Source: Candidatus Delongbacteria bacterium (GTDB lineage Bacteria; Delongbacteria; UBA4055). Taken from it: a stretch of DNA of 53,747 bases. Both the position numbers and the translations under genes were made by a program. Below the pieces are notes generated by a model. That model was given only the letters and a program-made list of their open reading frames with translations, did no database searches and was not told the origin of the DNA. The stretch covers positions 1 to 53,747 of the forward strand of contig JAQICF010000058.1 of the NCBI GenBank assembly GCA_027858795.1, written 5' to 3'. Positions 5,518 to 36,711 of the stretch are shown piece by piece; position 1 is the stretch's first letter, and each line of letters opens with the position of its first letter.

Positions 5518-5540
5518 GACGGTCTCCAGTGGTTCGTTTT

Positions 5541-5569: not shown

Positions 5570-5579
5570 AATACATAAA

Positions 5580-5604: not shown

Positions 5605-5614
5605 ACGGGTTATT

Positions 5615-16800: not shown

Positions 16801-17050
16801 AATTGTATTTATGAACCTGCCTAGAAAATGTGTAATTAGAATTTATACATTAGCAGGTGATTTATGTAAAACAATAGCTCATAATGGAGATGCGAGAGTT
16901 AACACTCCATGGCAATATGGAGAATATGGAGCCTATTGGAATTTTATAAATGAAAATCAGCAGGCAGTTGTATCCGGGATCTATCTTTTCAGTGTTCAGG
17001 ATGTTGACAGTGACTATGAATTTGTCGGGAAATTTGTGATCATAAAATAA
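13823..17050 (+). CDS. Large exported protein, paralog of the 25313 gene, with FlgD-like/T9SS-like C-terminus
   Basis: This 1075-residue exported protein has unknown function. A signal peptide lies at about residues 1-20. The conserved N-terminal block VHRAGLLWLN.SNMG (about 52-68) and the rest of the chain align end to end with the 25313-28606 product, about half the residues being identical by eye (EEQFxTMYTDK, EKFIIIDYTLYN, TVRVLRNPNPNLRY, DGWxGEDVG). A proline/serine stretch PPPPPSPSPK near residue 745 separates a roughly 740-residue globular part from FN3-like domains. The last 110 residues, VVPNPYRGDVDY...RIYTLAGDL...GIYLFSVQD...GKFVIIK, resemble a FlgD-type Ig/T9SS sorting tail but lack YPNPFNP. 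The start follows GGAG. Unlike its paralog it is alone, behind a sigma-54 element. A palindromic repeat begins directly after its stop. Confidence 0.7.
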   Translation: MDIKKVFIYVSLIITFSLYSLPKTDKDSSFNYDLQPTASSSKVIKPSIEYRVHRAGLLWLNTSNMGWIGDPWMSLEDPCTGKPVVSGEMPGGSGTSFIFVGSLWFGGYLDSATVQIDGVDATIFQGPLVSTSYEGWTGNPMPMEIWPVEFDDDPSGTTLGRIKETSNVEGRISCLFEDVYDPSATAEEQFTTMYTDKFVYRGYTGMDIDDNREHVPLGIEIREKSYAWSYAYAEKFIIIDYTLYNRNEDQKDIYDFFMAMYLDCDIGSYSDEVSWIHQDDLCGFIQKWDGYIDTATGEQKTVDLNLAWSADNDGRNYTGEDYYTPINEPGSGSPLDGATGVATVRVLRNPNPNLRYSYNIANYDSWDESLDWGPCWKIGLHSDWEYDLTPKQKGYDDTNYDGLTNDTDQEMFGGRTEGRPVGDRGKYMMMSNGEFDYNQTSIREVYLGMDTQIDGSPIPQADKWQPWIVTGDEDPGEIPDGTIAQLNDIANGIDQRSYLSFGPLGSECYVNIAYDSDQDSLGTLDDVRNQKSWKFAYGDSLKLTIALIVSENFHTSLNQDPNYANDEIVDLNDGLNVSLFDQGWYDAFYNVVWAERVYDIPMFDTPVTKYGETKTDGWFGEDVGEDGKFADILNSNNKLCWWFDQYYLALDVGEGDFELTNFTHELTDIYGNITSSEDNLLPFGRESIDQEGIYGITGSSDAGEGYGYMVKYDKFDGAYPQGTWVRFGYDNGRVDVGDGVPDFAGPPPPPSPSPKINVSYKKNDVVVEWSSHEFTEDEEGNIGVSGSEHYIDKFSRRKDFEGYSVMLSPNSNAQEYVDIFSVDKINYAYENVVRVGDYLDIPVPEDSLLSNPDMFPPTISYGKKIYQLVAFKENRSMYEPYSTELYTYSATKDSMFIDTMQVIYYNYKFILKDKLYAKQNYIAVTASDNGDPKTGVPLLKSSPAINGTSIIPSKIDGVKEVYVVPNPYRGDVDYEELGWENPDGGEWFEQDRKIVFMNLPRKCVIRIYTLAGDLCKTIAHNGDARVNTPWQYGEYGAYWNFINENQQAVVSGIYLFSVQDVDSDYEFVGKFVIIK

Positions 17051-19797: not shown

Positions 19798-21033
19798 TTA
19801 TTTATCGATATCGTATTTTCTAAAAGCGATCACTCTTTGAATGATCTTTGTAGGCTTATATTTATACTCAATATACTGACCGTTTTCTAAATTCTTTTTA
19901 TAAGACCAATGATATTCGTTGGTTTCTTTCTGAAAAACAATATCCATATCAAATTTATCTAAATGATGTATATAAAATTTGGAAATCTTATTAGTAATAT
20001 CAGTCTCTTCAATATTTTTCAAAGTTAATGATGCTGTCTTAGGCCTATGAACTATCTCAATTACCTGACAATCAATAGTATCTGCTCTTGTAATTATTTT
20101 TTCGTTTGGTAACTTTCTGAACATAGCGAAATTATGCTTAGATGGGTTTGATTTACTTTCATATTTTTTGACCACATCCTTTATGTCATCACTGAATGTA
20201 AACTTATACAAAAGTGAATCAGTTCCGATCTCTCGACACACCTTATCCTCATTGATGTTCTTTTTTAGATTATTAGATATTAATAGTCCAGAATAAGATA
20301 TGAATCCGCTTTTATTCAAATTGTACATGAAAACTAAAGGATTAATCTCTTTAAGTAATACATCAAAATCTGTTCTTGGTTCATCAATTATAGCCAAATT
20401 TGAAAGAACTTCACTATTTGTAAAGCCAGTAATAAAACTACCATCATTATTTCGATACTTTATTCTGGCGGTATTGTCAAATAAGGAGTCAACAAAAACA
20501 ATATCACCTTTGTTGAGAGTTGTTATTATACTTCCGGATAAGTTTTGATCTAAGAAAACTTTTGAGTTTGATGTTTCGATCCACCTGGGATCGATCAAAT
20601 TATTTTCAATATTATTATTATTATCGCTACTATCCTCAGAAAATGATGAAAATGACCTACCGTAGTACTTCATATTTGATAGGGTCCTTTTTCTAACCCA
20701 GCCTTCTACAAAATTAGGAGGAGTATCGATCAACCTAATTTTTACAAATTTTTTCTTTGGACCGAGTTCCAGATATTCAATAATTGAGTTGATGCTCAAT
20801 GAATATATAATCTCAGCATTATTTTTAGGCGAATCATAAACCAATCCATTGTCCATCTTGACTTCATAAAAAGTAGTTTCTAGAGAGTCAGATCTAAAGC
20901 TGTTGAACGTAATACCTGTCTTACTATCAACTATCGACTTCCTAATGTTAGTTTCCTGAGAGTAACTTATTGAAGAAGTAGCAGTAATTAATAATAATAC
21001 TGATAAATATTGTGTAAGGTGTTTTAATGCCAT
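19798..21033 (-). CDS. Exported protein with two bacterial SH3-like domains
   Basis: This 411-residue protein probably acts in the periplasm; function unknown. I place the start at ATG 21031-21033 because AGGAG lies seven bases ahead of it and it gives a clean signal peptide (MALKHLTQYLSVLLLITATSSISYSQ); an in-frame TTG at 21060 lacks such support. An SH3-like region lies at about residues 60-125 (IIEYLELGPKKKFVKIRL...EGWVRKRTL) and a second at about 150-215 (SKVFLDQNLSGSIITTLNKGD...ARIKYRNNDGSFITGF). Such domains often bind peptidoglycan. The rest, about 220-411, is not recognised. The stop codon abuts the convergent permease/protease stop, so the two transcripts must overlap or end within each other. 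Confidence 0.65.
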   Translation of the reverse strand: MALKHLTQYLSVLLLITATSSISYSQETNIRKSIVDSKTGITFNSFRSDSLETTFYEVKMDNGLVYDSPKNNAEIIYSLSINSIIEYLELGPKKKFVKIRLIDTPPNFVEGWVRKRTLSNMKYYGRSFSSFSEDSSDNNNNIENNLIDPRWIETSNSKVFLDQNLSGSIITTLNKGDIVFVDSLFDNTARIKYRNNDGSFITGFTNSEVLSNLAIIDEPRTDFDVLLKEINPLVFMYNLNKSGFISYSGLLISNNLKKNINEDKVCREIGTDSLLYKFTFSDDIKDVVKKYESKSNPSKHNFAMFRKLPNEKIITRADTIDCQVIEIVHRPKTASLTLKNIEETDITNKISKFYIHHLDKFDMDIVFQKETNEYHWSYKKNLENGQYIEYKYKPTKIIQRVIAFRKYDIDK

Positions 21034-21070
21034 CAAATATCTCCTAATGAAATTGACCAATTTGATTTAG

Positions 21071-21381: not shown

Positions 21382-21456
21382 ATCACAGACCTTGACAGGA
21401 AGGCAGGGTTTATGTTGCAAAAAAAAAGACTTAATTAATAAACAATGGAGCCAACT

Positions 21457-24400
21457 ATGAAAAGAAGTATCGTCATTTTGATGATCGCACTCTTCTCCTC
21501 AATGCTATTCTCAGGTACTACCGGTAAGATAAAGGGTATTGCAACCGATGAGAACGGTGAACCTTTAGAAGGTGCTAATATCATGGTAGTAGGTAAAACT
21601 TGGGGTGCTGAGACGGATGAAGATGGTTATTACTATATCATCGGTGTAAGAGCAGGAACTTACCAAGTAAAATGTCAGTACATTGGATACTCTCCAAAGA
21701 CAATTACCAACCTTAAGGTGAGAGTTGGATTGACATCTTCCCAAAACTTTAAGCTGATCTCAGAAGCAATTGAAATTGATGAACTTGAAATCGAAATATT
21801 TCAAGACGAAAAAGTAGAAATGGATGTTACTACCTCTATCAGAAATGTTGATATGGGAACAATGGAAACTCAAGCTCTTACAGAAGTGGGAGATGTTCTT
21901 GGTAGTCAAGCTGGTATTAAAAAAGATTCTGACGGGGAACTTCACTTTAGAGGTGGAAGATCAGGTGAGGTAAACTATGTTATTGATGGTATATCTGTAG
22001 GCGACCCGACAGGTGCTAAAGCTGAGCCAGTGTCTATAAATTTTGCAAATGTTGAATCTTTCAATATTCAGAAAGGTATTCCTGATGCAGAATATGGTGA
22101 TGCACTTTCAGGAAGTGTGAATATTGTGATGAAGATAGGTGATCAAGAAACAACTTCGGGTCATGCTAAATATTCGACAGACACATTTTTAGGAGAGAAT
22201 AGGTTAAATTATACCAGGGGGGAATTTAGTTTAAGTGGCCCAATACCAATTCCTGGAATGAAAGAAAAACCAACATACTATATTGGAACTGATTTTACTA
22301 CTCAAAATGGTTTTGGTAGTACCTACAGAGAGTTGGGAGATGTAGATGGTGATTATTTTGAATATGGTGATTATGACTTAACCGGATTAGGTTTTGAAGT
22401 AGGGCAGGGCAGACAAAATGATTTTAATGTTATTTTCAAAACTGCTTACCAAATAACACCTATGATCAGTCTAAGCACATCATATACAAAATCTAGATCA
22501 CACAACTATGACTTTAATTGGCTTTATAGATACACTCCACAGACAGCTACCGAGAGTATCATGGATGTGACAATTTTTAATGTGAATTTCAAACAAACAC
22601 TTAACCAACAAAGTTATTACGATTTTATTTTTTCATATTATAACAGAGAGTATGAAAGCCTTCCTGGTGGTAAATATCCGAATGAATTTGTTTACGAAGA
22701 TTCGCTTGATTGGTTTAATAGAGGTATTGGAGCAGCAACAGAATCAGATGTTCTAGCGAATTTTGTACGTGATGGTGGAGATGCCGAAGGTTATGTAGAT
22801 GGATTTTACGGTGGTTTTCTTGATGGGAACAATCAAATAAACTACGTTGTCAATGGATATTTTGACAGAGAATACTTCGAGGATGCAAATGGGAACAGTA
22901 ACTTTGATGCTGATGTTCAAGCAGAGTATGATTCCTGGATAGATGCAAATAATAATGGTACGTATGATGGTGATTACCTATATGACTCTAATAAGAATAA
23001 TCAATGGGATTACTGGGAGATAGGACAATCTTTCTCGGGTTTTGTTTCTGATGGATCTATGGGTATATTCACAGATCATATAGTTGAAGGATATCAGGAC
23101 CAAAATTTAAGTGGTCACTACGATAAAAATATTTATGGAGTAGCAAGTGATGAACCATTTATTGACGGGGATAAATTTCAGGAGACAGGAGAACCTTTTG
23201 TAGATCATAAAAGATTTTATATCGAAAATGGAGCGATCGTTAAGTTCTCAAATAATTACTGGGATGAAGGAGAAGTTGTAGTACTTAACGCGAGTGATTT
23301 GGATAGTGCTGATTTCGATTATGCATATCCTAGTTTATGGAGTGAATTGGAAGATATTGAGTCTAACGACCTATATAATGCTGATGTTTTGATTAACATT
23401 GATAGTACTAGAGTAACAATAACTTATCCACAAGAAAATTTTGCAGATCTTAGGTCTTCTTTAGGATCAAGTACGCAAACAACACCAAGATTCAATGATG
23501 TATACAATCCTCAAGACGGGATGTTTGATGAGTTTGAAGCTTATTGTGCTCGTAGACAATATGGGTCAAGTACCAATATTGATGATTTAGGGTGGACTGC
23601 TGGTCATGGACCATTAGATAATCCAACTGATTATTACGAATACATTGGGTCTTACGTAGTTTATAGAACATCAGCTGATATGTATAGCAATATTCCAGGT
23701 TATTATCAGGATTCAGAGGATGGATTAGGAGATAATATTCCAAAAGATGAATATTCGACATGGTTAGATCTTAACAATGATGGTTTCTTAGATATTGAAA
23801 ATGGCTTATATGATTCGGGAGAAAGGTATGTTGACTACAATTATAATGGTGTAAGAAACGATAATAGCGGTTTTTTATTACCAGATTCATATTTGGATGG
23901 GATGACATATCAAAACTTTAATAATACTGTAATGAAATTCAAGGGTAATTATACAAATCAGATAAATAAATTTCATATGATAAAGACTGGTTTTGAGCTG
24001 GCTTTGAATGATTTTGACTATTACAGCCTAAGTAATCCTTTTGTCAATTATATTGATGATGATGGTGCTGTAATTGATGGAGATCCTTATCCTGCTTATG
24101 GAGATCAGAAAACGTCTTATGATTATTCACCGACTGAATTTTCTATGTATGTGCAAGATAAAATGGAATTTGAAGATTTAGTGGTCAATGCAGGTATTAG
24201 ACTTGATATAAGAACTCTAGATCAAGCAGCCGTTGATTATTATAATGACCAACAAGACGAAGAAGAAGTGGGATATGAAGAAGAGTTGGATCAAACAATA
24301 TTTGCAATAAGCCCAAGATTTGGGATTTCTCATTCAATTTCTGAAACTTCAAAACTGTTTTTCTCATACGGGCATTTATACCAAAAACCAACTTATACAC

Positions 24401-25266
24401 AAGTTTTTGCGCCAAATACAGCAGCAGACGTAGCCAATCCACTATTTGGTAATATGAATCTTGGTTATCAAAGAAATGTGCAGTATGAACTAGGGGTTGT
24501 TAATGAGCTAGGACTCTATTTGATAGATATAACAGGCTATTTTAAGGATATTTACGATATGATAAACACAAAACAAATCGAAGATCCTGTAGAACCTGTA
24601 ACAATTTATTATAACTCTGATTATGGTAAATCAAGAGGTGTAGAAGTATCTGTGGATAGAAGTTTGAAAGATCATTATTTATGGGGTTTATCTTACACAT
24701 TGTCGTATGCATACGGAAAATCATCTGATGAAGAATCTAATATGTTTGAAGATGCTGTTGAAGTAAAAGAATTCCCTCTAAACTGGGATGAAAGACATTC
24801 GTTATCTACTTATTTTACTTTACTATTTGGTAGGGGGGAAACATTATTTGATCTTCCTTATACAGATAACTGGTCATTTGGTTTGAATACAAGTTTTGGA
24901 AGTGGATACCCATTCACACCAACTACTGATTATTATAGACCTGAAATAGTAGCAGAAAAAGATATTGAAACGAATTCAGAGAGAATGCCTTGGACATCAA
25001 ATACAGATATTAAATTTAGTAAAACTTTTGCTTTTTCCGGTGAAAATAATGTTTCTTACGGAAATTTAAAATTTGAGTTTAATGTTTATAATGTATTTAA
25101 TAAGATAAATGTATTTGAAGTTCATACCGACACAGGAAGTTGGTGGAGAAGAAGTGAAGCCTATTACGAGGATGATCAAAACTCAAATTTTGCTGAAGTG
25201 AATGCTAATCCAGCAAGAATTGCAGAGAGAAGACATTACAAGTTTGGTGTAAGCTATGCGTGGTAA
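21457..25266 (+). CDS. TonB-dependent-receptor-like outer-membrane protein with calcium-loop insertions
   Basis: First gene of the surface operon; 1269 residues from ATG 21457, chosen because GGAG lies six bases ahead and it starts a clean signal peptide (MKRSIVILMIALFSSMLFSG). An in-frame ATG at 21445 has no ribosome site. Residues about 20-100 are a carboxypeptidase-regulatory (CarboxypepD_reg-like) domain (GKIKGIATDENGEPLEGANIM). About 125-230 is a plug domain (LRSQ-like LGSQAGIKKDSDG, FRGGRSGEVNYVIDG). The rest is a beta-barrel ending in the aromatic outer-membrane signal ...FGVSYAW. Between about 470 and 820 sit five DxNxNG-type loops (DANGNSNFD, DANNNGTYDGD, DSNKNNQWD, DLNNDGFLD, DYNYNG) resembling calcium-binding repeats, which is unusual in a barrel. 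No TonB box is obvious. The substrate is unknown; it may be a structural or transport partner of the downstream exported proteins. Confidence 0.8.
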   Translation: MKRSIVILMIALFSSMLFSGTTGKIKGIATDENGEPLEGANIMVVGKTWGAETDEDGYYYIIGVRAGTYQVKCQYIGYSPKTITNLKVRVGLTSSQNFKLISEAIEIDELEIEIFQDEKVEMDVTTSIRNVDMGTMETQALTEVGDVLGSQAGIKKDSDGELHFRGGRSGEVNYVIDGISVGDPTGAKAEPVSINFANVESFNIQKGIPDAEYGDALSGSVNIVMKIGDQETTSGHAKYSTDTFLGENRLNYTRGEFSLSGPIPIPGMKEKPTYYIGTDFTTQNGFGSTYRELGDVDGDYFEYGDYDLTGLGFEVGQGRQNDFNVIFKTAYQITPMISLSTSYTKSRSHNYDFNWLYRYTPQTATESIMDVTIFNVNFKQTLNQQSYYDFIFSYYNREYESLPGGKYPNEFVYEDSLDWFNRGIGAATESDVLANFVRDGGDAEGYVDGFYGGFLDGNNQINYVVNGYFDREYFEDANGNSNFDADVQAEYDSWIDANNNGTYDGDYLYDSNKNNQWDYWEIGQSFSGFVSDGSMGIFTDHIVEGYQDQNLSGHYDKNIYGVASDEPFIDGDKFQETGEPFVDHKRFYIENGAIVKFSNNYWDEGEVVVLNASDLDSADFDYAYPSLWSELEDIESNDLYNADVLINIDSTRVTITYPQENFADLRSSLGSSTQTTPRFNDVYNPQDGMFDEFEAYCARRQYGSSTNIDDLGWTAGHGPLDNPTDYYEYIGSYVVYRTSADMYSNIPGYYQDSEDGLGDNIPKDEYSTWLDLNNDGFLDIENGLYDSGERYVDYNYNGVRNDNSGFLLPDSYLDGMTYQNFNNTVMKFKGNYTNQINKFHMIKTGFELALNDFDYYSLSNPFVNYIDDDGAVIDGDPYPAYGDQKTSYDYSPTEFSMYVQDKMEFEDLVVNAGIRLDIRTLDQAAVDYYNDQQDEEEVGYEEELDQTIFAISPRFGISHSISETSKLFFSYGHLYQKPTYTQVFAPNTAADVANPLFGNMNLGYQRNVQYELGVVNELGLYLIDITGYFKDIYDMINTKQIEDPVEPVTIYYNSDYGKSRGVEVSVDRSLKDHYLWGLSYTLSYAYGKSSDEESNMFEDAVEVKEFPLNWDERHSLSTYFTLLFGRGETLFDLPYTDNWSFGLNTSFGSGYPFTPTTDYYRPEIVAEKDIETNSERMPWTSNTDIKFSKTFAFSGENNVSYGNLKFEFNVYNVFNKINVFEVHTDTGSWWRRSEAYYEDDQNSNFAEVNANPARIAERRHYKFGVSYAW

Positions 25267-25312
25267 TGATATGATATCTAATGATAAATTAAAATAATTA
25301 GGAGACTGATTA

Positions 25313-28300
25313 ATGAAAATCTATAAGCAAATGACCATATTACTAGTTTTGATTGTAATGATGTCAGCTTTTACCAAATCAGCCCCAAGTGTTGATAATG
25401 AGACGGGTGACCTTGGTATAACTAAAGCTTCTAAACCCGATGTTCTAAATAGGGTTCATAGGGCTGGTTTACTATGGCTGAACGTGACGAATATGGGGCA
25501 TTATGGAAATCCAAAGAACTTTAGAGATCCATGTACAAGAAGAACTGCAGTGTCAGGAGAATTACCTGGTGGATCAGACACTGATTTTTTGTTTGCTGGA
25601 GCATTGTTATTTGGAGGTTATAAGAATCTAGATGCAATTAATGGTGCAATACCTTTTGAAGGGCCTTATGTTACTACTGCTTATGCTGGTTGGGACGGTA
25701 ACCCTATTATGCCTAATGAATGTTGGCCTACATTATTCGATGCTGATGGTGGTGGCTCAGGGGATATGAAAGAAATGTCAAATGTTGAAGGAAAAATAAG
25801 TTGCCTTTTTGAGGAAGTTTATGATCCTGCAGCAAATGCTGAAGAGCAGTTCAATACGATGTATACGGATAAGTATGTCAATTCATCCTATACAGGAGAA
25901 GATGTATTTGATTTAAGAGATCATATACCATTGGGTATAGAAGTAAGGCAGAAAAGTTATGCATGGTCTTATGAATATGCACAGAAATTCATTATTATAG
26001 ACTATACATTATATAACATGTCAGACGAAAAGCAAAATCTCTATGATTTTTTTATGGGAGTGTATTTAGATTGTGATATTGGAATGCCAGGAGATGGAAC
26101 AGGATTTCATGCAGATGATCTTGGTGGATTTATCCAAAAATGGGAAGATCCAATACCCGATCCTGCAACAGGAGAACGTAAAATTCATAATCTAAACCTT
26201 GCATGGGGAGCGGATAATGATGGTAGAAATTATAACGGGACTGATACTAGCCCGTCAGAACCCGGAGCAGGTGCGCCTTTAGACGGAGCAACTGGTATTG
26301 TAACAGTTAGAGTACTTAGAAACCCAAATCCAAATTTAAGATATGCATTTAATATGTATGTTGCGGACTCACGTAGTGAAAGTATTGATTGGGGACCAAG
26401 ATGGAAGCCAGGACTTCATGGTCCGGATGATGCTCCTATTGATGGTGAAATTCCATTACCATGGGATTATGATTTAACTGCAGCACAGCTAGGTTACGAT
26501 GATTATAATCAAGATAACTTGACAAATGACGGAGGTCAGGAACTATTTGGTGGTAGAGTAGAGGGAAGACCAGCCGGAGATAAAGGTAAATATATGGTCA
26601 TGTCAAATGATGAATTTGACTATAATCAGTATGATCTTATAGACGTTGATCGTGGGAACTTTGATGACCCTGATTATCTAGATGAAAATAATCCAGCAGA
26701 CGTACAATTTATGCAAGCGAATAAATGGCAACCATGGATTACTCCTGATGAGGTAGATGCAGAAAATCCAGTTACAGATGGTTCTATACGAGATAGGAAT
26801 GACCTTGCAAATGGAAGAGATACAAAATACATCTTATCTTTTGGACCTCTCGGAACTGAAAAAACGATCAGCTTTGCATATGATTCAAACAAGGATGGCA
26901 ATGTTGATAGTTTAGACACACCAATGGATAAAACAATTTGGGAATTTGGTTATAGAGATTCTCTTAAACTTACATTGGCATTCATTGTAAACGATAATTT
27001 TCATACATCACTTGATCAAGATCCAAATTACGATGATATAGATCTTGAGGATACTGCTGGTGGAATTGACAAGTCGTTATATGAAAAAGGATGGTATGAT
27101 GCCTTATATAATGTTGTATGGGCTGAGAAAGTTTATGATATACCGATGCATGATACATCAGTTAAAACTCTTGAGTACCCTGAAGGAGCGGGTGATGGTT
27201 GGTATGGAGAAGATGTAGGATCTGATGGTATATTTGCAACTGGAGTTGATGTGACAGAATGTTGGTGGAATGATCCGGTGGAAACCTATCTTGCTCCTGA
27301 TGCTGATAAAAGTGAAGGAAATGAAGAATTAGATGACTTTATTACACCATTTACAGATACTTACGGAAATCTTGCAACATCAGAAGATGATCTTCTTCCA
27401 AAAGGAAGAGAAATTGCAGAAGAAGGTGTTGGTACTACCGCAGGTGGTTATGGATATATGGTAAAGTATATCGGGCCTAATGCAGCTTATAATGATCAAT
27501 GGGTTAGATATGGTTTTGGTAACAATAATATCGATATTGGAGACGGAGTTCCGGATTTTACAGGACCACCACCACCACCATCACCAAAAATTGAAGTAAG
27601 TTACGATGGTAATGATGTGATTGTAAAATGGGCTTCTAAAGAGTTTTCAGTTAACGAGTCAGGTTTTGAAACCTACTCTGGACCTGAAGAATTCAAAGAT
27701 CCTTTTACAAGGATTAAAGATTTTGAAGGTTATCAGGTTAGATTATCTCCTGATTTGCAACAGCAAAATTATGTAGAAATATTTAGTGTAGACAAAAAAA
27801 ATTATGTATATGAGAATCTTGGAGAGACTGGTGATTACTTAGACAGACCATTCTCTATAGAAGAAAGAGATAGCCTTCATGCCAATGGTTTGGATATAAT
27901 TTCTGCAGAAGGCACAATGTATCAAATTATACCATTTGGAGATAATAGACCAATAGCCAATGATACTACTTCTGTATCTCACTTCGAACAGGGAGTTTAT
28001 GAGTATAGTTCTACTGCAACGACAAAGGACATTATAATGGAGTCTTTTGCTGGTACTGACAGTATTGCAACGGTGGATTACTTTCAGTATGAATTCAAAC
28101 TGTTGGATAAGCTGTATGCTAGAGAGAGTTACATAGCTGTAACTTCAACGGACTTTGGTGATCCTGCAACCGGAACACCTGCATTAAAATCTAATCCGAC
28201 AGTTAATGGTTCTTCGGTTATACCAACTAAACTGAGCAACACGGAAGATGTAGTCGTTGTTCCTAACCCATACCGAGGAGATGTTGATTACTTTGACTTA

Positions 28301-28606
28301 GGATGGGAAAATATTGGTGGTGAAGAGGATGAATGGCAAGAGCAAGACAGGAAGATAGTTTTTATGAATATACCATTAAGATCTGTAATCAGAGTTTATA
28401 CTCTAGCAGGTGATCTTGTAAAGACTATTGCTCATAATGGCAACGCAAGAGTTGATGTAAGGTATCAGTATGGAGAATATGGAGCAGCCTGGGATCTGAT
28501 AAACGAAAATGATCAGGCTGTTGTTTCAGGTATATATTTATTTAGTGTACAGGATGCTGATGACGATAGTTATGAGCAGATCGGTAAATTTGTAATTATT
28601 AAATAA
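25313..28606 (+). CDS. Large exported protein, operon paralog of the 13823 gene
   Basis: Second gene of the operon, 1097 residues, function unknown. It has a signal peptide (about 1-23, MKIYKQMTILLVLIVMMSAF), the N-terminal family block VHRAGLLWLNVTNMG (about 48-62), a globular region aligned throughout with the 13823 product, a PPPPPSPK linker near residue 755 and FN3-like domains. The C-terminus (VVPNPYRGDVDYFDLGWEN, RVYTLAGDLVKTIAHNG, GIYLFSVQD, IGKFVIIK) looks like a FlgD-Ig/T9SS-like sorting tail. Two acidic stretches (DYNQDNLTND, DSNKDGNVDSLD) are calcium-loop-like. The start follows AGGAG. It lies 46 bases after the barrel gene and 11 before the lipoprotein gene, so it belongs to the same transcript. 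A surface role dependent on that barrel and the PorV-like protein is an inference. Confidence 0.72.
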   Translation: MKIYKQMTILLVLIVMMSAFTKSAPSVDNETGDLGITKASKPDVLNRVHRAGLLWLNVTNMGHYGNPKNFRDPCTRRTAVSGELPGGSDTDFLFAGALLFGGYKNLDAINGAIPFEGPYVTTAYAGWDGNPIMPNECWPTLFDADGGGSGDMKEMSNVEGKISCLFEEVYDPAANAEEQFNTMYTDKYVNSSYTGEDVFDLRDHIPLGIEVRQKSYAWSYEYAQKFIIIDYTLYNMSDEKQNLYDFFMGVYLDCDIGMPGDGTGFHADDLGGFIQKWEDPIPDPATGERKIHNLNLAWGADNDGRNYNGTDTSPSEPGAGAPLDGATGIVTVRVLRNPNPNLRYAFNMYVADSRSESIDWGPRWKPGLHGPDDAPIDGEIPLPWDYDLTAAQLGYDDYNQDNLTNDGGQELFGGRVEGRPAGDKGKYMVMSNDEFDYNQYDLIDVDRGNFDDPDYLDENNPADVQFMQANKWQPWITPDEVDAENPVTDGSIRDRNDLANGRDTKYILSFGPLGTEKTISFAYDSNKDGNVDSLDTPMDKTIWEFGYRDSLKLTLAFIVNDNFHTSLDQDPNYDDIDLEDTAGGIDKSLYEKGWYDALYNVVWAEKVYDIPMHDTSVKTLEYPEGAGDGWYGEDVGSDGIFATGVDVTECWWNDPVETYLAPDADKSEGNEELDDFITPFTDTYGNLATSEDDLLPKGREIAEEGVGTTAGGYGYMVKYIGPNAAYNDQWVRYGFGNNNIDIGDGVPDFTGPPPPPSPKIEVSYDGNDVIVKWASKEFSVNESGFETYSGPEEFKDPFTRIKDFEGYQVRLSPDLQQQNYVEIFSVDKKNYVYENLGETGDYLDRPFSIEERDSLHANGLDIISAEGTMYQIIPFGDNRPIANDTTSVSHFEQGVYEYSSTATTKDIIMESFAGTDSIATVDYFQYEFKLLDKLYARESYIAVTSTDFGDPATGTPALKSNPTVNGSSVIPTKLSNTEDVVVVPNPYRGDVDYFDLGWENIGGEEDEWQEQDRKIVFMNIPLRSVIRVYTLAGDLVKTIAHNGNARVDVRYQYGEYGAAWDLINENDQAVVSGIYLFSVQDADDDSYEQIGKFVIIK

Positions 28607-28617
28607 CGGAGTAGGAA

Positions 28618-30702
28618 ATGAAAAAAATAATATTAGTATTTATCGTACTGCTCATATCGATGCTCTTTTATTCCTGTGAAACAGAGTACAAGGGTTCAGT
28701 ACCGACTAATACAGAGCCAAAACTGATAATCTATGACACGTCAGATATAATCAGTAGTAAACTAACTAAAATACAATGGTATGGAAACGATTCAGATGGT
28801 ACAAAAATGACATACTATTATTGTGTTACAACAGATACCACACTAACAGTAGATAATGCATCATCTGCTTTAGCAGGTAAATGGAAACAAACATCTAATT
28901 CTTATGTGGATATTTCAATGCCTTTTGCAAAATATAACGCAGATACGATGTTTGTCGATAGTTCTATTTATACCGATCCATTAGAAGGTATTGAAGTAAA
29001 AAGATATATTGTTCATTCCGAATTCTTTTTGTATGGTGTTGATGAGGATGGCGGAATGACAGAAACAGTATCAAAGAAATTTGGAAGAACGAACAGAATA
29101 CCAAAGCATCCAATGGTAAACTCAAAAAAACTGGATGTTTTTGGATATGACCAGTATTGGTTCACTATTGGACCGGATTCTGCGGTAATGGTGCTTAGTA
29201 AGGAAACATCGTTTTGGAAACCAATTGATTTCAAATGGATGGGTTCAGATCCTGATGGTCCGGATGTTGATCTTGAATTCAAATGGGAATTAGTGGCATT
29301 AGACGATTCAGGTGATTCAATTGAAGTTATTGATCATTCAAATGACTGGTCTATAAGTTATTTGTCTGTTGAGTTTTCTGATATAATATTCAACTATAAT
29401 AATGAAGGTAAATATTCATTTAGAGTATATGTTAGAGATGATGCATTGGAACAATCAGAAAATCATGCAACAGTTAACTTTGAAGTATATGCACCTCAAT
29501 TAGACAGAGGAATTCTTCTCATTGATGATACTGACCCAACTCTATATCCTCAGCAATTTACATCTAAGCTGTATATGGGGAATCCAAATGCAGATAGCAC
29601 AACTGTGTTCTATGAATCATTATTAAAGTATGCTGGTTTTGAACCTGAAGGTGCAAGTTTCGCTCCGGATGATTCTTTAAATCTTTATAGAATAAAGAGA
29701 TTCTCAAAAAAAATTGTAACTGTAGGATGGGATTACATTTGGGATGATCACGACCTTGATCCTTCTACCCCAATTCAAATAGTAGATTCTGTTGAAATAG
29801 AACGAGGATTTTACTCACCGGATATAAGAGAGTTAAGTAGATATAACCTTGTTATTATTACTTCAGATGATCGAGGTAATTCAAACGGTGTTGATTTTAA
29901 AGGGCAGGAACCTTATACGGGATATGGAGAGTATTTATCAAGTTATCTTGATATAGGTGGAAATGTAATGGTACTAGGTAATTCTGTATTAATGGGTGCA
30001 TTATATTCATCACCGGATCAATTACCTATAAATGCCTATAAAGCCCCTTATAGACAGGTGTTTGATCCTGGCGCAGTTGCAACATCAACATTAAGTGATA
30101 ATACATTAGAATTCTTCAGAGATTATTTTGGTATTTATTCAATGACATTTCCGGAACAGAAGTCATACTTTATGGAAAATTCTACTAGGCAAACATGTAA
30201 AGATGATCATCAGCTAGCGGATAATTATGATTTTATAGGTATTACTCCTTATGAACATATTGATGATATAAATATAAAAGAAATGAGAATTGATAGTGCA
30301 CGAGTAAATGATGCATGGTGGGATAAAGATGAATCGGGTACTATTAGAAAATTATCTTTAAAAGATAATGGTACTGTATTTTCAGGAGTTCCAACAATAC
30401 AAGCTTTTAAGGGAGAGGCTGTTTACAAGTATAAATCTGTTTATTCTCTTGATAGAGATCCATCTAATGATTCTTTAGTAGTTGATGGTGATCTTACACA
30501 CTCTCTTTTTTGGACTAATAGATTAACCGGAGAGAAAGGTCCTATCTTGGAAAAATCCGGAACGATAGCTACTCGATATATTGCTGATGGAGATATATTC
30601 AGAACTGCATTCTTTGGAATGCCAACGTATTTCTTGGATAATTCAGATAATCAAGTAAGTGAAATGTTTAAAGCAATGGTAGACTGGTTCGAAATTAAAT
30701 AA
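28618..30702 (+). CDS. Large lipoprotein of the surface operon
   Basis: This 694-residue protein has a lipoprotein signal (MKKIILVFIVLLISMLFYSC, lipobox Cys20), so it is probably anchored in the outer or inner membrane. Two Ig/FN3-like segments carry a (G)xDxDG motif: KIQWYGNDSDGTKMTYYYC (about 45-65) and FKWMGSDPDGPDVDLEFKW (about 204-222). A region at about 295-480 (GILLIDDTD, NLVIITSDDRGN, YLSSYLDIGGNVMVLGNS) resembles class I glutamine-amidotransferase or ThuA-like folds, without a recognisable catalytic Cys. It starts 11 bases after the preceding gene behind GGAG and 16 bases ahead of the PorV-like gene. Its exact role is unknown; position suggests a partner of the two barrels and the big exported protein. 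Confidence 0.65.
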   Translation: MKKIILVFIVLLISMLFYSCETEYKGSVPTNTEPKLIIYDTSDIISSKLTKIQWYGNDSDGTKMTYYYCVTTDTTLTVDNASSALAGKWKQTSNSYVDISMPFAKYNADTMFVDSSIYTDPLEGIEVKRYIVHSEFFLYGVDEDGGMTETVSKKFGRTNRIPKHPMVNSKKLDVFGYDQYWFTIGPDSAVMVLSKETSFWKPIDFKWMGSDPDGPDVDLEFKWELVALDDSGDSIEVIDHSNDWSISYLSVEFSDIIFNYNNEGKYSFRVYVRDDALEQSENHATVNFEVYAPQLDRGILLIDDTDPTLYPQQFTSKLYMGNPNADSTTVFYESLLKYAGFEPEGASFAPDDSLNLYRIKRFSKKIVTVGWDYIWDDHDLDPSTPIQIVDSVEIERGFYSPDIRELSRYNLVIITSDDRGNSNGVDFKGQEPYTGYGEYLSSYLDIGGNVMVLGNSVLMGALYSSPDQLPINAYKAPYRQVFDPGAVATSTLSDNTLEFFRDYFGIYSMTFPEQKSYFMENSTRQTCKDDHQLADNYDFIGITPYEHIDDINIKEMRIDSARVNDAWWDKDESGTIRKLSLKDNGTVFSGVPTIQAFKGEAVYKYKSVYSLDRDPSNDSLVVDGDLTHSLFWTNRLTGEKGPILEKSGTIATRYIADGDIFRTAFFGMPTYFLDNSDNQVSEMFKAMVDWFEIK

Positions 30703-30718
30703 AGTTAAGGGGAATAAA

Positions 30719-31735
30719 ATGAATAAAGTACTGCTAATATTTATGATGCTTATCATAGTCTTTGTACCTTCTTCTTTGGCACAGGATAAAGCGGGAACAG
30801 CCGGTATGCCATTTTTGAAGATAGATGTAACTGCAAGAGCCTTTTCAATGGGAGGAGCTTTTATTGGTTTATCGAATGACGCATCTACTTTGTACTATAA
30901 TCCGGCAGGATTAATAAATCTGAAACATATGGAATTTGTAACAACACACAATATGTATCTTGCTGATATAAGTTACAATTATTTGGGTGCTACTTATCCA
31001 TTGCCACAATTAAATGCGGGAATGGGATTACAGGTTGCTTATCTTTCAACAGGTGATATAGATGAGACTACAATTAAATTTCCGAATGGAACAGGAAGAA
31101 CATTCAGTGCTTATGACTTTATGGTAGGTGCTTCTTATGCACAGATGCTAACACCAAAGTTTTTTGTTGGTGGAACATTAAAGTTCTTAAGCGAAGGCCT
31201 TGCGGATGAAAAAGTATATACTGCTGCAGGTGATGTAGGTACATACTATAATACAGGATGGCAATCACTGATCTTTGGAATGTCGATTAGAAATTTCGGA
31301 GGAAATTATTCGTACATTAGTGAAGACACACCGTTACCAATGTTATTTATATTCGGTTTGAGGTATGCACCTATTGATGATAAGGTGAATAGACTGGATG
31401 TACTATTGGAAGCAGCACATCCATCTGATAATAGTGAGTATATGGTGTTAGGATTGGAGTATTCATATGAGAATATGTTCTTTCTTCGATTCGGTAGAAA
31501 ATTTGATAATGATGAATATTGGATCACAAAAGGTGATGATATAGAAGTTGCATCCGACGAAGAATCTCCAGATTCTGAGCTGTATTACGAAGAAAGTGGT
31601 ATTAACTGGATGGGTACAAGCTTAGGACTTGGATTTAATATGGAATCAATGGGATTGAAAATTGATTATGGTTGGAAGCATATGGGGTATTTGGGAATGA
31701 CCCACATGATCACACTTGGTTACACGTTGAAATAA
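30719..31735 (+). CDS. PorV/PorQ-family outer-membrane barrel
   Basis: This 338-residue FadL-like outer-membrane barrel has a signal peptide (about 1-21, ending SSLAQ). The family signature is clear: AGTAGMPFLKIDVTARAFSM, then GGAFIGLSNDASTLYYNPAGL (about 44-64). In Bacteroidota PorV shuttles T9SS cargo from the translocon to the attachment complex; members in other FCB phyla are usually linked to T9SS cargo by context. Here it stands directly before a gene with a YPNPFNP sorting tail and after a large exported protein and a lipoprotein. It ends in IDYGWKHMGYLGMTHMITLGYTLK, typical final strands. The start follows AGGGG. Whether it is a true PorV or a paralogous operon-specific shuttle cannot be decided here. 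Confidence 0.82.
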   Translation: MNKVLLIFMMLIIVFVPSSLAQDKAGTAGMPFLKIDVTARAFSMGGAFIGLSNDASTLYYNPAGLINLKHMEFVTTHNMYLADISYNYLGATYPLPQLNAGMGLQVAYLSTGDIDETTIKFPNGTGRTFSAYDFMVGASYAQMLTPKFFVGGTLKFLSEGLADEKVYTAAGDVGTYYNTGWQSLIFGMSIRNFGGNYSYISEDTPLPMLFIFGLRYAPIDDKVNRLDVLLEAAHPSDNSEYMVLGLEYSYENMFFLRFGRKFDNDEYWITKGDDIEVASDEESPDSELYYEESGINWMGTSLGLGFNMESMGLKIDYGWKHMGYLGMTHMITLGYTLK

Positions 31736-31774
31736 GTTAGAATTAAAGAATAATAAAATAAGGAGGAGTCGAAA

Positions 31775-33967
31775 ATGTTTAAGAAAATCACGGTAGTTTC
31801 TCTAGTGCTCATTTTTTCATTGTCTATGGCATTGGATAATGTGGATAAGCTAAAAACAAGAAAAATGGTAAAATGGAATAAAGTAAATGACACTAAGAGT
31901 AGTGCAAGTTCAAGTTCAAAACTACCATATGTAGCAGAATTTGGTACAACTTTTGATCAAGGATTCAATGGATATGGTTGGGGAAATAGAACTGGAAGAA
32001 GGATAGAGACAAACATGGATCCAGCAACAGGTTTAATGATTGGAACCCATTTTAGAAATAATGATTTGTCAGCCTCAGCAGCAGGTGGGGCTATTGGTGG
32101 AATGATAGGTGTTTGGGATACAGCTTTTTTAGGAAATTCTTCAACGATTTATGGAGAATCTATTTATCAGGACGGAGCTGTAGGTGAACCAGGTGGTAGA
32201 TATGTTGCTTCTTGTGCGTTTATTAACGGATTTTACTTCGGTGTTTTCAATGATTACGATCTAGTTGGTCCTGGAACACCACCTTATGGAGAAACATCAC
32301 AGCCAATGTTCACTGTATGTGATGCAACATGGGGTTATGATGATTTATTATGGACAACAGACAGAGTTGAAGCTACAGAGGGTGGAGCAGTAGTTCCGGA
32401 TGCTTGGACAGGTTCCGGTGATGTTGTTTATGAACAAGCTACTGGTTTATATCATTGGTCTCAAGTATGGAATTCAGGTCTAGCAAATGGAGCTGAATCT
32501 GTATGGTCTGTAGTAAATGGACAATCTTTAACTCCGGACGTTCCTGAAAGTTGGATATGGACAGATTATCAGGATTTAGGTTTTAATTGTACTGATTCAT
32601 TAACTGGTGAATTTGAAATGGGTGATCTATATCCGGCTTTCTGTAAGGATATATATGGAAATGGTACAGGATATGGCATTATGATTGGAAATGCAGTTCA
32701 AGTAGATGATTCTGTTATGAATTCTTTAGGTCAGACAGTAGCTCCAAACGCAAAAATATCATATATGTACACAACAAACTGGGGTGCAGAAGATGATGGT
32801 GGTGGTTATTCTCCTAATTGGATATCAGATGGTGGACAATTATTCCAAATAGAAAGTAAAGATCTTTTTGATTGGTTTGGTGAGGAGATAATAACTAGAG
32901 ATTCTATTGGATGGGATGATATACTCGAAGAAACGATTTGGGATACAACAGAAGTTATACCTATGGATGATCCATCAATACAACATAATGTATCGGTTAT
33001 AGCAACTGAATACAATGCAGTTCATTTACTTATTAGAGTATGGGCAGGTTCTTTAAACTCTCCAGGTTCTTATTACCCATTGGGAGGTAATGATTTTAGG
33101 GGTGGTTATTACCATGTTAGAGGTCAGATATCTGATACTGGAGTAACTTGGAGTAAAGCTACGATGATAGCAGGAAATATAGATAATTATATTGATGCTG
33201 ACGCAGATGGAGATTATGACTTTGAGTATAAATATTACAATAGTAATAGTCTGAGTATTGGTTATGCTGGATTCGGTCAAGTTTATGCTTCATGGATGGA
33301 TAAACCAACAAGTAGAGCCGTTGCAAACCCTTTTGCAGATCTTCAAGATGCATGTCTTTATAAAGATGATGCTTATTTTTCTATTTCTGGAGATGATGGA
33401 GATACTTGGCAAGTAGATTACCTTGATTCTGTATTGTGGGATACTGGTGAAATTTGGGTTATGCCGGTAGGTTATAACTTAACAAATACAGGTAAAGTAC
33501 ACGAAGCTGCATGGGCAGTAGCTAAAAACGGAACTCAAGAAACTGGTGAGTTGACTTTATACGGAGTATCACAGAGTTATGATCCTAATGCTTTGACTAA
33601 TCCTGATAATGACAGTATGATGTGTTATGAGCAATTTTATAATATTTGGAAGATAACAGGTACCATGACTAATGGTATTGAGGCGGAAGAAGTTTCAATG
33701 GTAAATGACTTTGAATTAATGCAGAACTATCCAAACCCATTTAACCCTAGTACTAAGATCAGTTTTAAGATCCAAAATGAAGCTAAGGTTAAACTTACTG
33801 TATTTAACTCAAATGGTGAGACAGTAGCATCATTAGTTAATGGTAAAATGGCAAAAGGACTTCACAAAGTTAATTTCGATGCTTCAAAATTAAACTCTGG
33901 AGTTTACTTCTATCAGTTAGACGTAAGCGGAATGAAGACAACTAAGAAAATGGTATTAGCTAAATAA
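31775..33967 (+). CDS. T9SS-secreted protein with Asp-box (BNR-like) repeat
   Basis: Last gene of the operon; 730 residues with a signal peptide (about 1-19) and a type A T9SS sorting domain at about 645-730 (MQNYPNPFNPSTKI, SGVYFYQL, KKMVLAK). The body contains an Asp-box, SGDDGDTW (from about residue 538), and a degenerate one, SDTGVTW (about 452), as in sialidase-like beta-propellers. GQVYASWMD between them fits a propeller blade. Catalytic residues of sialidases are not recognised, so enzymatic activity is not claimed. A very strong AAGGAGG ribosome site precedes the ATG. It is probably the exported end product of the operon, delivered by the T9SS with the PorV-like protein. The core T9SS genes are not in this window. 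Confidence 0.75.
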   Translation: MFKKITVVSLVLIFSLSMALDNVDKLKTRKMVKWNKVNDTKSSASSSSKLPYVAEFGTTFDQGFNGYGWGNRTGRRIETNMDPATGLMIGTHFRNNDLSASAAGGAIGGMIGVWDTAFLGNSSTIYGESIYQDGAVGEPGGRYVASCAFINGFYFGVFNDYDLVGPGTPPYGETSQPMFTVCDATWGYDDLLWTTDRVEATEGGAVVPDAWTGSGDVVYEQATGLYHWSQVWNSGLANGAESVWSVVNGQSLTPDVPESWIWTDYQDLGFNCTDSLTGEFEMGDLYPAFCKDIYGNGTGYGIMIGNAVQVDDSVMNSLGQTVAPNAKISYMYTTNWGAEDDGGGYSPNWISDGGQLFQIESKDLFDWFGEEIITRDSIGWDDILEETIWDTTEVIPMDDPSIQHNVSVIATEYNAVHLLIRVWAGSLNSPGSYYPLGGNDFRGGYYHVRGQISDTGVTWSKATMIAGNIDNYIDADADGDYDFEYKYYNSNSLSIGYAGFGQVYASWMDKPTSRAVANPFADLQDACLYKDDAYFSISGDDGDTWQVDYLDSVLWDTGEIWVMPVGYNLTNTGKVHEAAWAVAKNGTQETGELTLYGVSQSYDPNALTNPDNDSMMCYEQFYNIWKITGTMTNGIEAEEVSMVNDFELMQNYPNPFNPSTKISFKIQNEAKVKLTVFNSNGETVASLVNGKMAKGLHKVNFDASKLNSGVYFYQLDVSGMKTTKKMVLAK

Positions 33968-34005: not shown

Positions 34006-34010
34006 ACTTA

Positions 34011-34037
34011 AAAAGGGAGTTTTTACTCCCTTTTTTT
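34011..34037 (+). terminator. Strong intrinsic terminator of the surface operon
   Basis: AAAAGGGAGT (34011-34020) and ACTCCCTTTT (34025-34034) form a perfect 10-bp stem with a TTTT loop, followed by a run of T. It marks the end of the five-gene operon. Confidence 0.9.
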
Positions 34038-34067: not shown

Positions 34068-34107
34068 TCTGATTGAAGAAAAAGACTAAAGAGTGGTAGA
34101 AAATAAT

Positions 34108-36711
34108 ATGAAAAATATAATAATAATTTTACTTGTTTTATTATTTGGCAAAGCTTTTTCGATTGAAAAAGAAACAGTAAAAATGATAAATAAATATTCA
34201 GGCAAAAATAAAAAAGCATTACTAGAGATGGTAGATTCTAAAAAAGGTAAAACCCTAGAATATATCAATTTTATATTAGATAATTCATCAGCGAATGATC
34301 TTGCCGTGCTTACTCCTGAGTATATACTTGAAAGTGTTGAGTATGCAATTAAATCAAAAGAATTCTTATATTCAAAGCAATATGATGATAATATATTCAA
34401 ACATTTTGTGTTGCCATTAAGAATGTCTCAAGAACCATTTGAAGAATGGAGAAAAGAATTCTATACAGAACTCAAACCGATTGTAGAAAAGATAGAAGAT
34501 ATTGAAGAGGCTGCAATAGCTATAAATTTCTGGGCATATGAACAAATGACTTACAAATCAACTCACGGTAGGGATCAAGGCCCGATCACGACAATGAAAA
34601 GAGGCTGGGGACGATGCGAAGAAATGATGATAATTTATATGGCTGCTGCAAGAAGTGTCGGAATACCAGTCAGATCCGCAGGAGCACCATTCTGGAATTT
34701 TACAGATAATAATCATGCGTGGGTTGAAGTATGGACACCTAAAGGATGGAAATATCTTGGCGAACCGGCAAATAGGTTAAATAAAACCTGGTTTTCTCAT
34801 ACGACTTTAAGGGCATCTTTAATTACTTCAAGAGCTTTTGGAAATTATGAAAGTAAAAATGTGATCAAAACTGAGAACAAGTCAACATTGCTAAGCTCGA
34901 TAGAATATTATACGGATAAATATGATGTAAGTAAGATCATGGTTGATGATGAGGATGGCCAACCAATTGAAGGAGCTTTAGTAACGCTTTATGCAGTGAC
35001 TTATGGTGGAATTATGCCATTGATAGATGCAAAAACTGACCAATTCGGTCAAGTATCAATACCAATCGGTAAAGGATCTGTTTTTGTTACAGCTTATGAT
35101 AATAAATCGAAGTTCGGTTATGGACTTTTCAACAGCCTTGAAAATGGACCTGAATTCAGACTCATTCTGAAAGAAGATAATGAGAAGATCGACATTAGTG
35201 TAAACTACAAATTTCAAATTTATCAAAGTGAATTCAAGCACGATAGTTTACAGAAAGAATATTTCAATGGTACATTCGACATAAAGAATCAGCTGGCAAA
35301 CGAAAAAAGAAAAAATAAATTTAAAAACTATGAGAGAACTTCAGAATTTGTAGAATATTTTCAACGAAGTTTAAATAAGAATATAGATACTGGTTATTTC
35401 AAGAGACAAAAAAAATATTTGGATAAATGTAATTCATTAGGAGAAAATACTTCTGAATTTTTGAAGGTATATGAGAGTATTAAGGTCAACAAGAGTAAAA
35501 ATTATATTTTAACAACCATGATAGAAAAATGGAATGAAAAAGAACTTAATGAAATTCCTGATAGTCTAACAATTCATGATCTGGTTGATATTTATTATGA
35601 AGGTAGAAATAAATATATAAAAGTAGTCCCTGATACTATGTTTACAAATAATGTGATCGGTTCTACATGGAAATCTGCCACACCACCTCAAAATGGTTGG
35701 CAAAAAGAACTTTACAGTAAAATTAAAGACTTAAGATCTTACAATATGAATACCACTGTAAAAGATATTCTTTCATGGGTTGATTCACAAGTCGAGGTAG
35801 ACAGTAATTTTACCTACAGTTATTATGCGGGATCATTAAATCCGGTACAAATATTGAATATGAAATCAATTCCTCCATTCTACAGAACTAAGATAATTAA
35901 TTCATCATTGAAATTATTAGGGATCCCTGTACAGTGGAAAGGAAGATTAGAGTACTATAACGGAAAAAAATATGTAAGTGTTGAAAGTAAAACAACTGGC
36001 AAAAAAGATTCTCAGGAAAGAGAAATTCGATTGTCACTGTTTGTTGATGACGAACAAGTAAAAGCTGATCCATGGAGCAACTTCTTACTTGGAGAATATA
36101 ATAAGGGTGTTATCGAATCTTCATATTTTGATGGTAAGAATGATTCTTTGGATTACATATTAACACTTCCACAACAGGATGAAAAGTTCTTGTATGTTGA
36201 ATCTGCAATAAGAAACTCTAATGGTGATGCCAATGTTGTAATAAAAAGCATCAATAACGATGATAATGAACTTACAATAAAGTTAAATACTCCAAAAGAA
36301 TATTTAGATACTTCATCTGAGCTATCAGAAAAAGCGATATTAAGTATTATTGAGCTCACATCAACTATTCCTGATGAAAAGACCAAGATAATTCTTATCA
36401 GGGGAGTTATACCTAATGAACCCACAAAAAGAATGCTTAACCTATTGACTGAAAAATCTGCAAAATTCAATGAACTTGATGCTTCTATTGTTATATACAC
36501 AGAATTGAGAGATAATAATGATATTAAAAATATATCAGCAGAAAATATTATTAAAAAACAAGGTGAGATACTCATTCCGGAAACTTCGGATGAATCGTAT
36601 CCAATAATCTTATTAGTAGATAAAGACAACAAGATATTATTTGCTTCAAAAGGGTATAATATGAGTATAGCAGATCTACTTTTAAAGAAGTTAAAGAATC
36701 TAAAAAAATAG
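34108..36711 (+). CDS. Exported multidomain transglutaminase-like protein
   Basis: This 867-residue exported protein starts at ATG 34108, which begins the signal peptide (MKNIIIILLVLLFGKAFS); an in-frame GTG at 34093 would add five residues. A transglutaminase-core domain spans about 110-250, with Cys170 in GWGRCEEMM and His near 203 in NNHAWVEVW. The third position reads GEPANRLNKTWF, the variant ending seen in many bacterial members, in place of a clear Asp. About 280-350 is a carboxypeptidase-regulatory/Ig-like domain (DDEDGQPIEGALVTLY). A second, degenerate transglutaminase-like stretch lies at about 545-650 (IPPFYRTKIINSSLKLLGIPVQWKG), without the Cys. The C-terminus (IILLVDKDNKILFASKGYN) looks thioredoxin-like without a CxxC. 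The ribosome site is weak. Possibly a surface protease or cross-linking enzyme; substrate unknown. Confidence 0.75.
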   Translation: MKNIIIILLVLLFGKAFSIEKETVKMINKYSGKNKKALLEMVDSKKGKTLEYINFILDNSSANDLAVLTPEYILESVEYAIKSKEFLYSKQYDDNIFKHFVLPLRMSQEPFEEWRKEFYTELKPIVEKIEDIEEAAIAINFWAYEQMTYKSTHGRDQGPITTMKRGWGRCEEMMIIYMAAARSVGIPVRSAGAPFWNFTDNNHAWVEVWTPKGWKYLGEPANRLNKTWFSHTTLRASLITSRAFGNYESKNVIKTENKSTLLSSIEYYTDKYDVSKIMVDDEDGQPIEGALVTLYAVTYGGIMPLIDAKTDQFGQVSIPIGKGSVFVTAYDNKSKFGYGLFNSLENGPEFRLILKEDNEKIDISVNYKFQIYQSEFKHDSLQKEYFNGTFDIKNQLANEKRKNKFKNYERTSEFVEYFQRSLNKNIDTGYFKRQKKYLDKCNSLGENTSEFLKVYESIKVNKSKNYILTTMIEKWNEKELNEIPDSLTIHDLVDIYYEGRNKYIKVVPDTMFTNNVIGSTWKSATPPQNGWQKELYSKIKDLRSYNMNTTVKDILSWVDSQVEVDSNFTYSYYAGSLNPVQILNMKSIPPFYRTKIINSSLKLLGIPVQWKGRLEYYNGKKYVSVESKTTGKKDSQEREIRLSLFVDDEQVKADPWSNFLLGEYNKGVIESSYFDGKNDSLDYILTLPQQDEKFLYVESAIRNSNGDANVVIKSINNDDNELTIKLNTPKEYLDTSSELSEKAILSIIELTSTIPDEKTKIILIRGVIPNEPTKRMLNLLTEKSAKFNELDASIVIYTELRDNNDIKNISAENIIKKQGEILIPETSDESYPIILLVDKDNKILFASKGYNMSIADLLLKKLKNLKK

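Follow-up and report, generated by a model that had tools for sequence, protein, structure and literature searches.

A TonB-dependent receptor, a large secreted protein and a PorV/PorQ-family barrel in one recurrent operon of Candidatus Delongbacteria: a possible surface capture and uptake complex

Why would a TonB-dependent receptor be encoded in one run with a lipoprotein, two secreted proteins and an outer-membrane barrel of the PorV/PorQ family? The question is raised by positions 21457-33967 of a contig from a Candidatus Delongbacteria bacterium (assembly GCA_027858795.1, contig JAQICF010000058.1), whose whole analysed stretch of 53,747 nucleotides is called the window below. Five co-directional open reading frames on the + strand, with intergenic gaps of 46, 11, 16 and 39 bases in order, make up this run. 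A preliminary description had listed five closely spaced genes, and the same coordinates, strand and gaps were recovered here; domain models and a lipobox also agree with its receptor-like barrel, lipoprotein, PorV/PorQ-family barrel and protein tailed for the type IX secretion system (T9SS). At roughly even chances, we read the operon as encoding a TonB-linked, utilisome-like surface complex for capture and uptake, the soluble subunit of which would reach the surface through the T9SS and be held there by its own PorQ-like barrel. The five genes are as follows.

21457-25266, + strand: G1, TonB-dependent receptor of 1269 amino acids counted from 21457 (alternative in-frame ATG at 21445), with CarboxypepD_reg, Plug and TonB barrel
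25313-28606, + strand: G2, exported protein of 1097 amino acids, with predicted supersandwich, FnIII and T9SS C-terminal domain
28618-30702, + strand: G3, lipoprotein of 694 amino acids, with FnIII/Ig domains and a C-terminal alpha/beta domain
30719-31735, + strand: G4, PorV/PorQ-family outer-membrane barrel of 338 amino acids, proposed cognate tether of G2
31775-33967, + strand: G5, secreted protein of 730 amino acids whose T9SS tail is of the ordinary type A (TIGR04183, 39.5 bits, cut-off 23)

The set recurs within the phylum. A contig scan with a profile of the 1097-residue family (A1, built from 34 G2 matches hand-picked for spread from the best 120 of 239) gave 48 loci and covered 13 Delongbacteria genomes. 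All five genes stand in one run in six further loci (L001, L002, L003, L005, L035 and L103) from 5 of the 13 genomes, L002 and L035 belonging to the same genome; the receptor in L002 and the barrel in L103 run off their stretches and are incomplete. The order is G4-G5 in the window, L003 and L035 and G5-G4 in L001, L002, L005 and L103; G5 and its position are the most variable part of the set. Elsewhere the run is partial: G1-G2 reach the contig end in G006 and G008 (L012, L030), the genes of G020 and G021 lie on small contigs (L056, L104, L089), G019 has a G2-G3 pair with only a weak receptor match (L071), and G017 has a tail-only G2 match and a lone G4 ortholog (L182). The order is G5-G1-G3-G2 in G007 (L106), where at 2186-5813 the receptor occupies two open frames across a gap of unknown bases and G3 comes before G2, perhaps through assembly trouble plus a real rearrangement. 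G3 was found in 12 of the 13 genomes, and solitary and tandem copies of G2 are common. Most named homologs of G2 and G3 come from Candidatus Delongbacteria; several others carry the label Clostridiales bacterium, probably as mislabelled metagenome-assembled genomes (MAGs).

Some G2-G3 pairs also occur outside the receptor operon (L109, 5654-8806; L111, 2873-6004). In L109 the tail of the G2 member is ordinary and type A-like, and no barrel adjoins the gene, which makes it a natural tail swap. A pilin link was considered for the pseudopilin-sized small genes beside G2-G3 in L109 and L110 and was dropped on reading them; we take them to be rnpA, yidC and a polyprenyl synthase gene.

The arrangement extends beyond Delongbacteria. 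Of 7992 scored candidates, 1331 are relatives of the G2 family at E <= 0.001. The profile A3 matches 38 of 39 genomes of a second phylum, whose MAGs include some named KSB1, Electryonea and Calditrichaeota and one labelled Puniceispirillum. We sampled its 52 G2 matches of at least 1153 bits, on 51 stretches (two matches in L140) from 34 genomes, and called partners on the same strand at thresholds of our own (receptor 140, lipoprotein 300, G2 900, barrel 150 and G3 180 bits). The order receptor, lipoprotein, G2, barrel, G3 was present on one strand in 25 of the 51 loci (25 genomes), and 34 of the 51 have at least one partner. The barrel directly follows G2 in 20 of the 25 ordered loci; in L150, L162, L164, L167 and L171 G2 and the barrel are parted by a small gene and by one for a large relative of the beta-helix set, and in other loci this pair of genes lies between the barrel and G3. 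Both this large cargo and the second-phylum lipoprotein appear to be beta-helical on our own reading of their sequences, with no family match. Other genes part the receptor from the rest of the set in L165. In several second-phylum genomes (L124, L126, L131 and L132) the operon lies directly downstream of a gene that presumably encodes isocitrate dehydrogenase, with a small gene between in L126.

Profile comparison joins the two phyla for both G2 (100%, E 1e-149, 848 columns) and G3 (99.3%, E 2e-20, 372 columns, residues 1-456 of G3). Among relatives of G001, 79 of 290 genomes have some A3 match, in many cases to the tail only. Outside both phyla, 15 loci from 11 genomes were hand-picked among the stronger matches; a match of 230 bits in G152 and another of 238 bits in G060, the second from that genome, were left aside. 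Receptor, G2 and barrel occur together in 9 of the 15 (9 genomes), with G3 next in L212, L216, L219, L222 and L224, divergent or apart in L221, L225 and L226, and absent in L213; the arrangement is missing in L214, L215, L217, L218, L220 and L223, and in three of these six G2 borders a contig end or lies close to one. Thus the co-occurrence search proposed in the preliminary description finds the set with a kept neighbourhood in Delongbacteria, the second phylum and further genomes; because of this the homologs are not simply scattered, though solitary G2 genes are common (17 of the 51 second-phylum loci).

G2 had been described simply as an exported protein. Its T9SS-type C-terminal domain had been overlooked, and modelling indicates that G2 is itself a T9SS cargo. 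The predicted domains are a supersandwich (about 41-751), FnIII (about 751-975) and the T9SS C-terminal domain (about 977-1097), which ends in GKFVIIK and is predicted to fold like the C-terminal domains of PorZ and PorU. G2 has no Pfam or NCBIfam match, and no sortase or PorZ propeller family was matched. For G2, Foldseek listed sugar enzymes and antibodies side by side with PorU and PorZ, and the fold reading rests on a closer second look.

To place the tail among known classes, we compared three sets of C-termini with the NCBIfam models. At E <= 0.01 the 40 operonic G2 tails match PorZ (20 of 40) and PorU (9 of 40), with weak scores, and never type A (0 of 40). Of thirteen other barrel-linked tails (profile A5), 11 match PorZ, 11 type A and 9 PorU, and 31 ordinary tails match type A and PorU throughout (31/31 each) and PorZ in 5. 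When the Protein Data Bank (PDB) was searched, A5 retrieved PorZ, with an alignment up to the final residue (E 1e-6), together with PorU (3e-4) and 8glj (0.56); profile A6 retrieved 8glj (5.5e-6), FlgD, PorU (0.0012) and gingipain (0.015), and no PorZ.

The second element of the proposed pair is the barrel. G4 belongs to the PorV/PorQ family (NF033709, 189 bits against a cut-off of 90) and scores higher with the PorQ equivalog (104 bits, cut-off 220) than with that of PorV (74 bits, cut-off 250), staying below both cut-offs; the PorP/SprF model TIGR03519 is not among the five families matching G4 at E <= 0.1. The preliminary description had proposed a PorV-like shuttle. The family assignment holds, but the higher PorQ score of G4 agrees better with a barrel that tethers a retained tail than with a recycling shuttle. 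In a tree of 82 barrels, 9 from Delongbacteria and 31 operonic ones from the second phylum form one clade (100/98), which joins 11 barrels of paralogous operons in a clade of 51 (100/100); six core PorV sequences form a separate clade (100/100). The group labels are not independent of sequence because they were assigned partly by G4-profile score (>=400 bits) as well as by locus, while the clades come from the tree itself, which carries a long-branch warning for its outer rows. Two of the nine Delongbacteria barrels (L182, L183) are orthologous but encoded away from the operon.

Core PorV genes exist apart from the operonic barrels, and two of them in the second phylum adjoin PorU (652.6 and 693.7 bits, cut-off 420). 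The Delongbacteria core PorV (L186) adjoins M6-like and TolB-like proteins. Second-phylum genomes each hold 7-21 PorV/PorQ-family matches, weak ones included. Tandem pairs of more distant PorV-family genes were seen in L187, L188, L191, L209 and L210, downstream of secreted proteins of about 500 amino acids with ends resembling the GKF type (for example WGKIAVIN in L191).

How tightly are tail and barrel coupled? A G2-like protein lies upstream of 51 of the 56 distinct barrels scoring at least 120 bits, and a TonB receptor lies in the same run for 39 of them; since the loci were collected through G2 or PorV matches, these counts are not random samples. Paralogous operons of receptor, G2-like protein and barrel recur inside single genomes, for example L124, L174 and L180 in G009. 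We asked whether the 13 more distant barrel-linked G2-like proteins share only their tail with G2, and this idea was rejected, as 11 of the 13 also match the N-terminal blocks of G2. Tail-barrel coupling therefore cannot be told apart from inheritance of the protein as a whole, PorU-PorV and L190 being the exceptions; L190 is a locus without a receptor, and its two G2-like proteins match G2 in the tail alone. A strict rule, with the GKF-type tail always beside a barrel, also failed, only 31 of 85 such G2-family tails being near one. The barrel is the next or second gene for none of four G2-family ordinary tails. Among other proteins it takes such a place for 17 of 28 with a GKF-type tail, 13 of 44 with an ordinary one and 8 of 38 left unclassed. 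This tally is a description rather than a test, being built on crude patterns in loci gathered by G2 or PorV matches; its unclassed tails include some G3, beta-helix and unrelated proteins, and the PorU end of L185 fell in the ordinary class.

The remaining partners are the receptor and the lipoprotein. G1 passes the cut-offs for PF13620 (CarboxypepD_reg), PF07715 (Plug, 39.1 bits) and PF00593 (receptor barrel, 80.6 bits), and does not reach that of the SusC/RagA model TIGR04056 (50.9 bits, cut-off 368.25). The G3 lipobox ends in Cys20, invariant in a 23-row alignment (A2, with 22 of 54 G3 matches hand-picked for spread), and is followed by predicted FnIII/Ig domains (about 30-293) and an alpha/beta domain (about 292-694). 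G3 has no Pfam or NCBIfam match above threshold, only a sub-threshold Y_Y_Y; its Foldseek list consists mostly of generic Ig, FnIII and cadherin entries, and its domain reading rests on a second, closer structural look. PDB sequence searches with G2 and G3 gave nothing convincing, and no SusD entry is among the Foldseek matches listed for either, which does not in itself exclude SusD likeness. SusD_RagB (PF07980, the sole SusD family of Pfam searched) is absent from all 13 Delongbacteria genomes, with a positive Bacteroides control; MAG incompleteness limits this result, yet 0/13 is hard to blame on it. TonB_C is present in 13/13 of these genomes, and SprA is matched in all 16 genomes behind the loci, 14 above the cut-off, including all eight Delongbacteria ones tested. 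The operon had been called self-contained; this is not supported, because export would need the chromosomal SprA translocon and uptake would need TonB.

In the proposed mechanism, the receptor G1, the surface lipoprotein G3 and the large soluble G2 would form one outer-membrane complex. G2 would leave across the outer membrane via SprA and retain its PorZ/PorU-like domain, which the G4 barrel would hold as PorQ holds PorZ. In published work, PorV is reported to anchor PorU and PorQ to anchor PorZ (PMC5562754), and the C-terminal domains of PorU and PorZ are reported to be retained uncleaved (PMC11285876). By analogy with these pairs, G4 should hold the G2 tail and so bring a sugar-enzyme-like fold beside G1 and G3, and we regard this anchoring as probable. 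G2 and G3, positioned over G1, could capture a substrate, for which a glycan or glycoconjugate is our best, though tentative, guess; the captured substrate would then pass to G1 for TonB-driven import, a step for which the chances appear evenly balanced. G5 could be a second cargo with a tail processable by the central sortase, accessory and replaceable.

Several observations weigh against this reading. The tail assignment is fragile: the window's own G2 matches PorZ only weakly (E 0.0024), a PDB search with profile A4 (the 40 barrel-linked G2 tails, solo ones excluded) returned only PorU at E 0.67, and the classes grade into each other, since A5 tails match type A and ordinary tails match PorU. 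Moreover, 54 of the 85 G2-family genes with a GKF-type tail, contig ends included, lack a barrel as first or second downstream gene, and the 17 partnerless second-phylum G2 loci have tails of the same type. The deep Delongbacteria genome G018 carries G1-G2-G3 twice without G4 (L101, L102), its G4 ortholog lying elsewhere beside a G5-like gene (L183). Finally, no glycosidase was recognised in the operon, and supersandwich and alpha/beta folds are widespread and no proof of glycan binding.

Some of these facts would be expected if G4 were an ordinary extra PorV that shuttles G2 and G5 from SprA to the central sortase, the operon being a receptor co-transcribed with two secreted proteins. PorV is reported to take cargo tails from SprA (PMC10994853); G5, with its ordinary tail, lies directly 5' of the barrel in four loci (L001, L002, L005, L103), as does a G5-like gene in L183, and the PorU model matches every ordinary tail. 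We nevertheless consider this explanation unlikely, in view of the separate core PorV, the higher PorQ score of G4 and the PorZ-like tail of the protein that recurs beside the barrel across paralogous operons. To a similar degree, we doubt a purely structural role, with G2 and G3 as a surface layer or adhesin on anchoring platforms made of receptor and barrel, and no import. Expansion of the G2 family (G007 alone has up to 19 matches, counting fragments), its often solitary or tandem genes and the lack of a recognised catabolic enzyme in the operon fit such a role; but G1 has both plug and receptor barrel, TonB is present, and what recurs in paralogous operons is the receptor together with the barrel. 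A loose collection of surface genes that form no single complex seems least probable. The G4/G5 swaps, the displaced or divergent G3 of L221, L225 and L226 and the split set of G018 fit it, while the order kept across phyla and the clade-level linkage of the barrels argue against it.

The operon may represent an unnamed gene set of several uncultured groups, an alternative to nutrient capture by SusC/SusD. A bolder possibility, which we think less likely than not, is that the Fibrobacteres-Chlorobi-Bacteroidetes (FCB) group has TonB-dependent uptake machines of a separate and ancient class, several per genome, in which the SusD-like soluble partner, exported by the T9SS instead of being a lipoprotein, sits on its own PorQ-like barrel and secretion and uptake meet in one complex; PorU-PorV and PorZ-PorQ would then be specialised members of the same pairing rule. 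If so, T9SS phyla without SusD_RagB would place the receptor's partner by a secretion system and hold it by a dedicated barrel. Many unexplained PorV/PorQ paralogs of these genomes would gain a role and a large unannotated cargo family a name, and a testable rule would follow, in which tail class predicts barrel partner.

The surroundings of the operon in the window comprise the following features.

13823-17050, + strand: second, solitary G2-family gene of 1075 amino acids, 1715 bits to the G2 profile
19798-21060, - strand: Up, divergent gene of 420 amino acids with a sub-threshold SH3-like match, kept beside G1
34010-34035, + strand: intrinsic terminator-like hairpin of 11 pairs followed by a T-run
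34093-36711, + strand: G6, transglutaminase-like protein (PF01841), identified by domain match and conserved place after the run

G6 follows the run in five of the six other Delongbacteria five-gene loci, the sixth (L103) ending before that point, and Up is a conserved neighbour in Delongbacteria loci. One promoter and one strong terminator had been proposed. The hairpin with its T-run is present and has the most pairs among four terminator-like sites, a class no more frequent than by chance (4 found, 5.2 expected). Promoter-like sites are at chance level (65 found, 62.8 expected), and a single promoter region is no more than plausible, the upstream gene being divergent and the inner gaps not exceeding 46 bases. 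Downstream of the solitary G2-family gene, which has neither receptor nor barrel, come a DUF6036 gene and a gene for a fusion of ABC2 permease and Rce1 (17803-19797). Two adjoining genes on the - strand (991-5517 and 5615-9781) each encode a large right-handed beta-helix protein that ends in an ordinary T9SS tail (Pfam Beta_helix, Por_Secre_tail). A viral origin was rejected: the viral contig scan found no relative, and none of 35 pattern matches was confirmed.

The preliminary description knew of no system with this composition, and among the titles and abstract openings listed by searches of open-licence papers no such locus appeared either; three known systems come closest. The SusCD utilisome for levan of Bacteroides thetaiotaomicron resembles the operon in that G3 has the layout, and only the layout, of its SGBP-type glycan-binding lipoprotein (lipid anchor, Ig-like domains, C-terminal alpha/beta domain). 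It differs in that the 13 Delongbacteria genomes lack SusD_RagB and G1 falls far under the SusC/RagA cut-off, and the soluble partner here is a predicted T9SS cargo with a dedicated PorV/PorQ-family barrel. With PorZ-PorQ and PorU-PorV, the operon shares a secreted protein with a PorZ/PorU-like C-terminal domain encoded together with a PorV/PorQ-family barrel. In contrast to these pairs, G2 matches neither sortase nor PorZ propeller families, G4 stays below both equivalog cut-offs, and the operon is TonB-receptor-linked and present in many copies. As for type B cargo, such as SprB with SprF, PMC9143113 has it held by PorP-like barrels and proposes a cognate FadL-type barrel as the surface holder of T9SS cargo. 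That idea is close to the tether proposed here, whereas the barrel of our operon is of the PorV/PorQ family and the tail that it may hold is PorZ/PorU-like.

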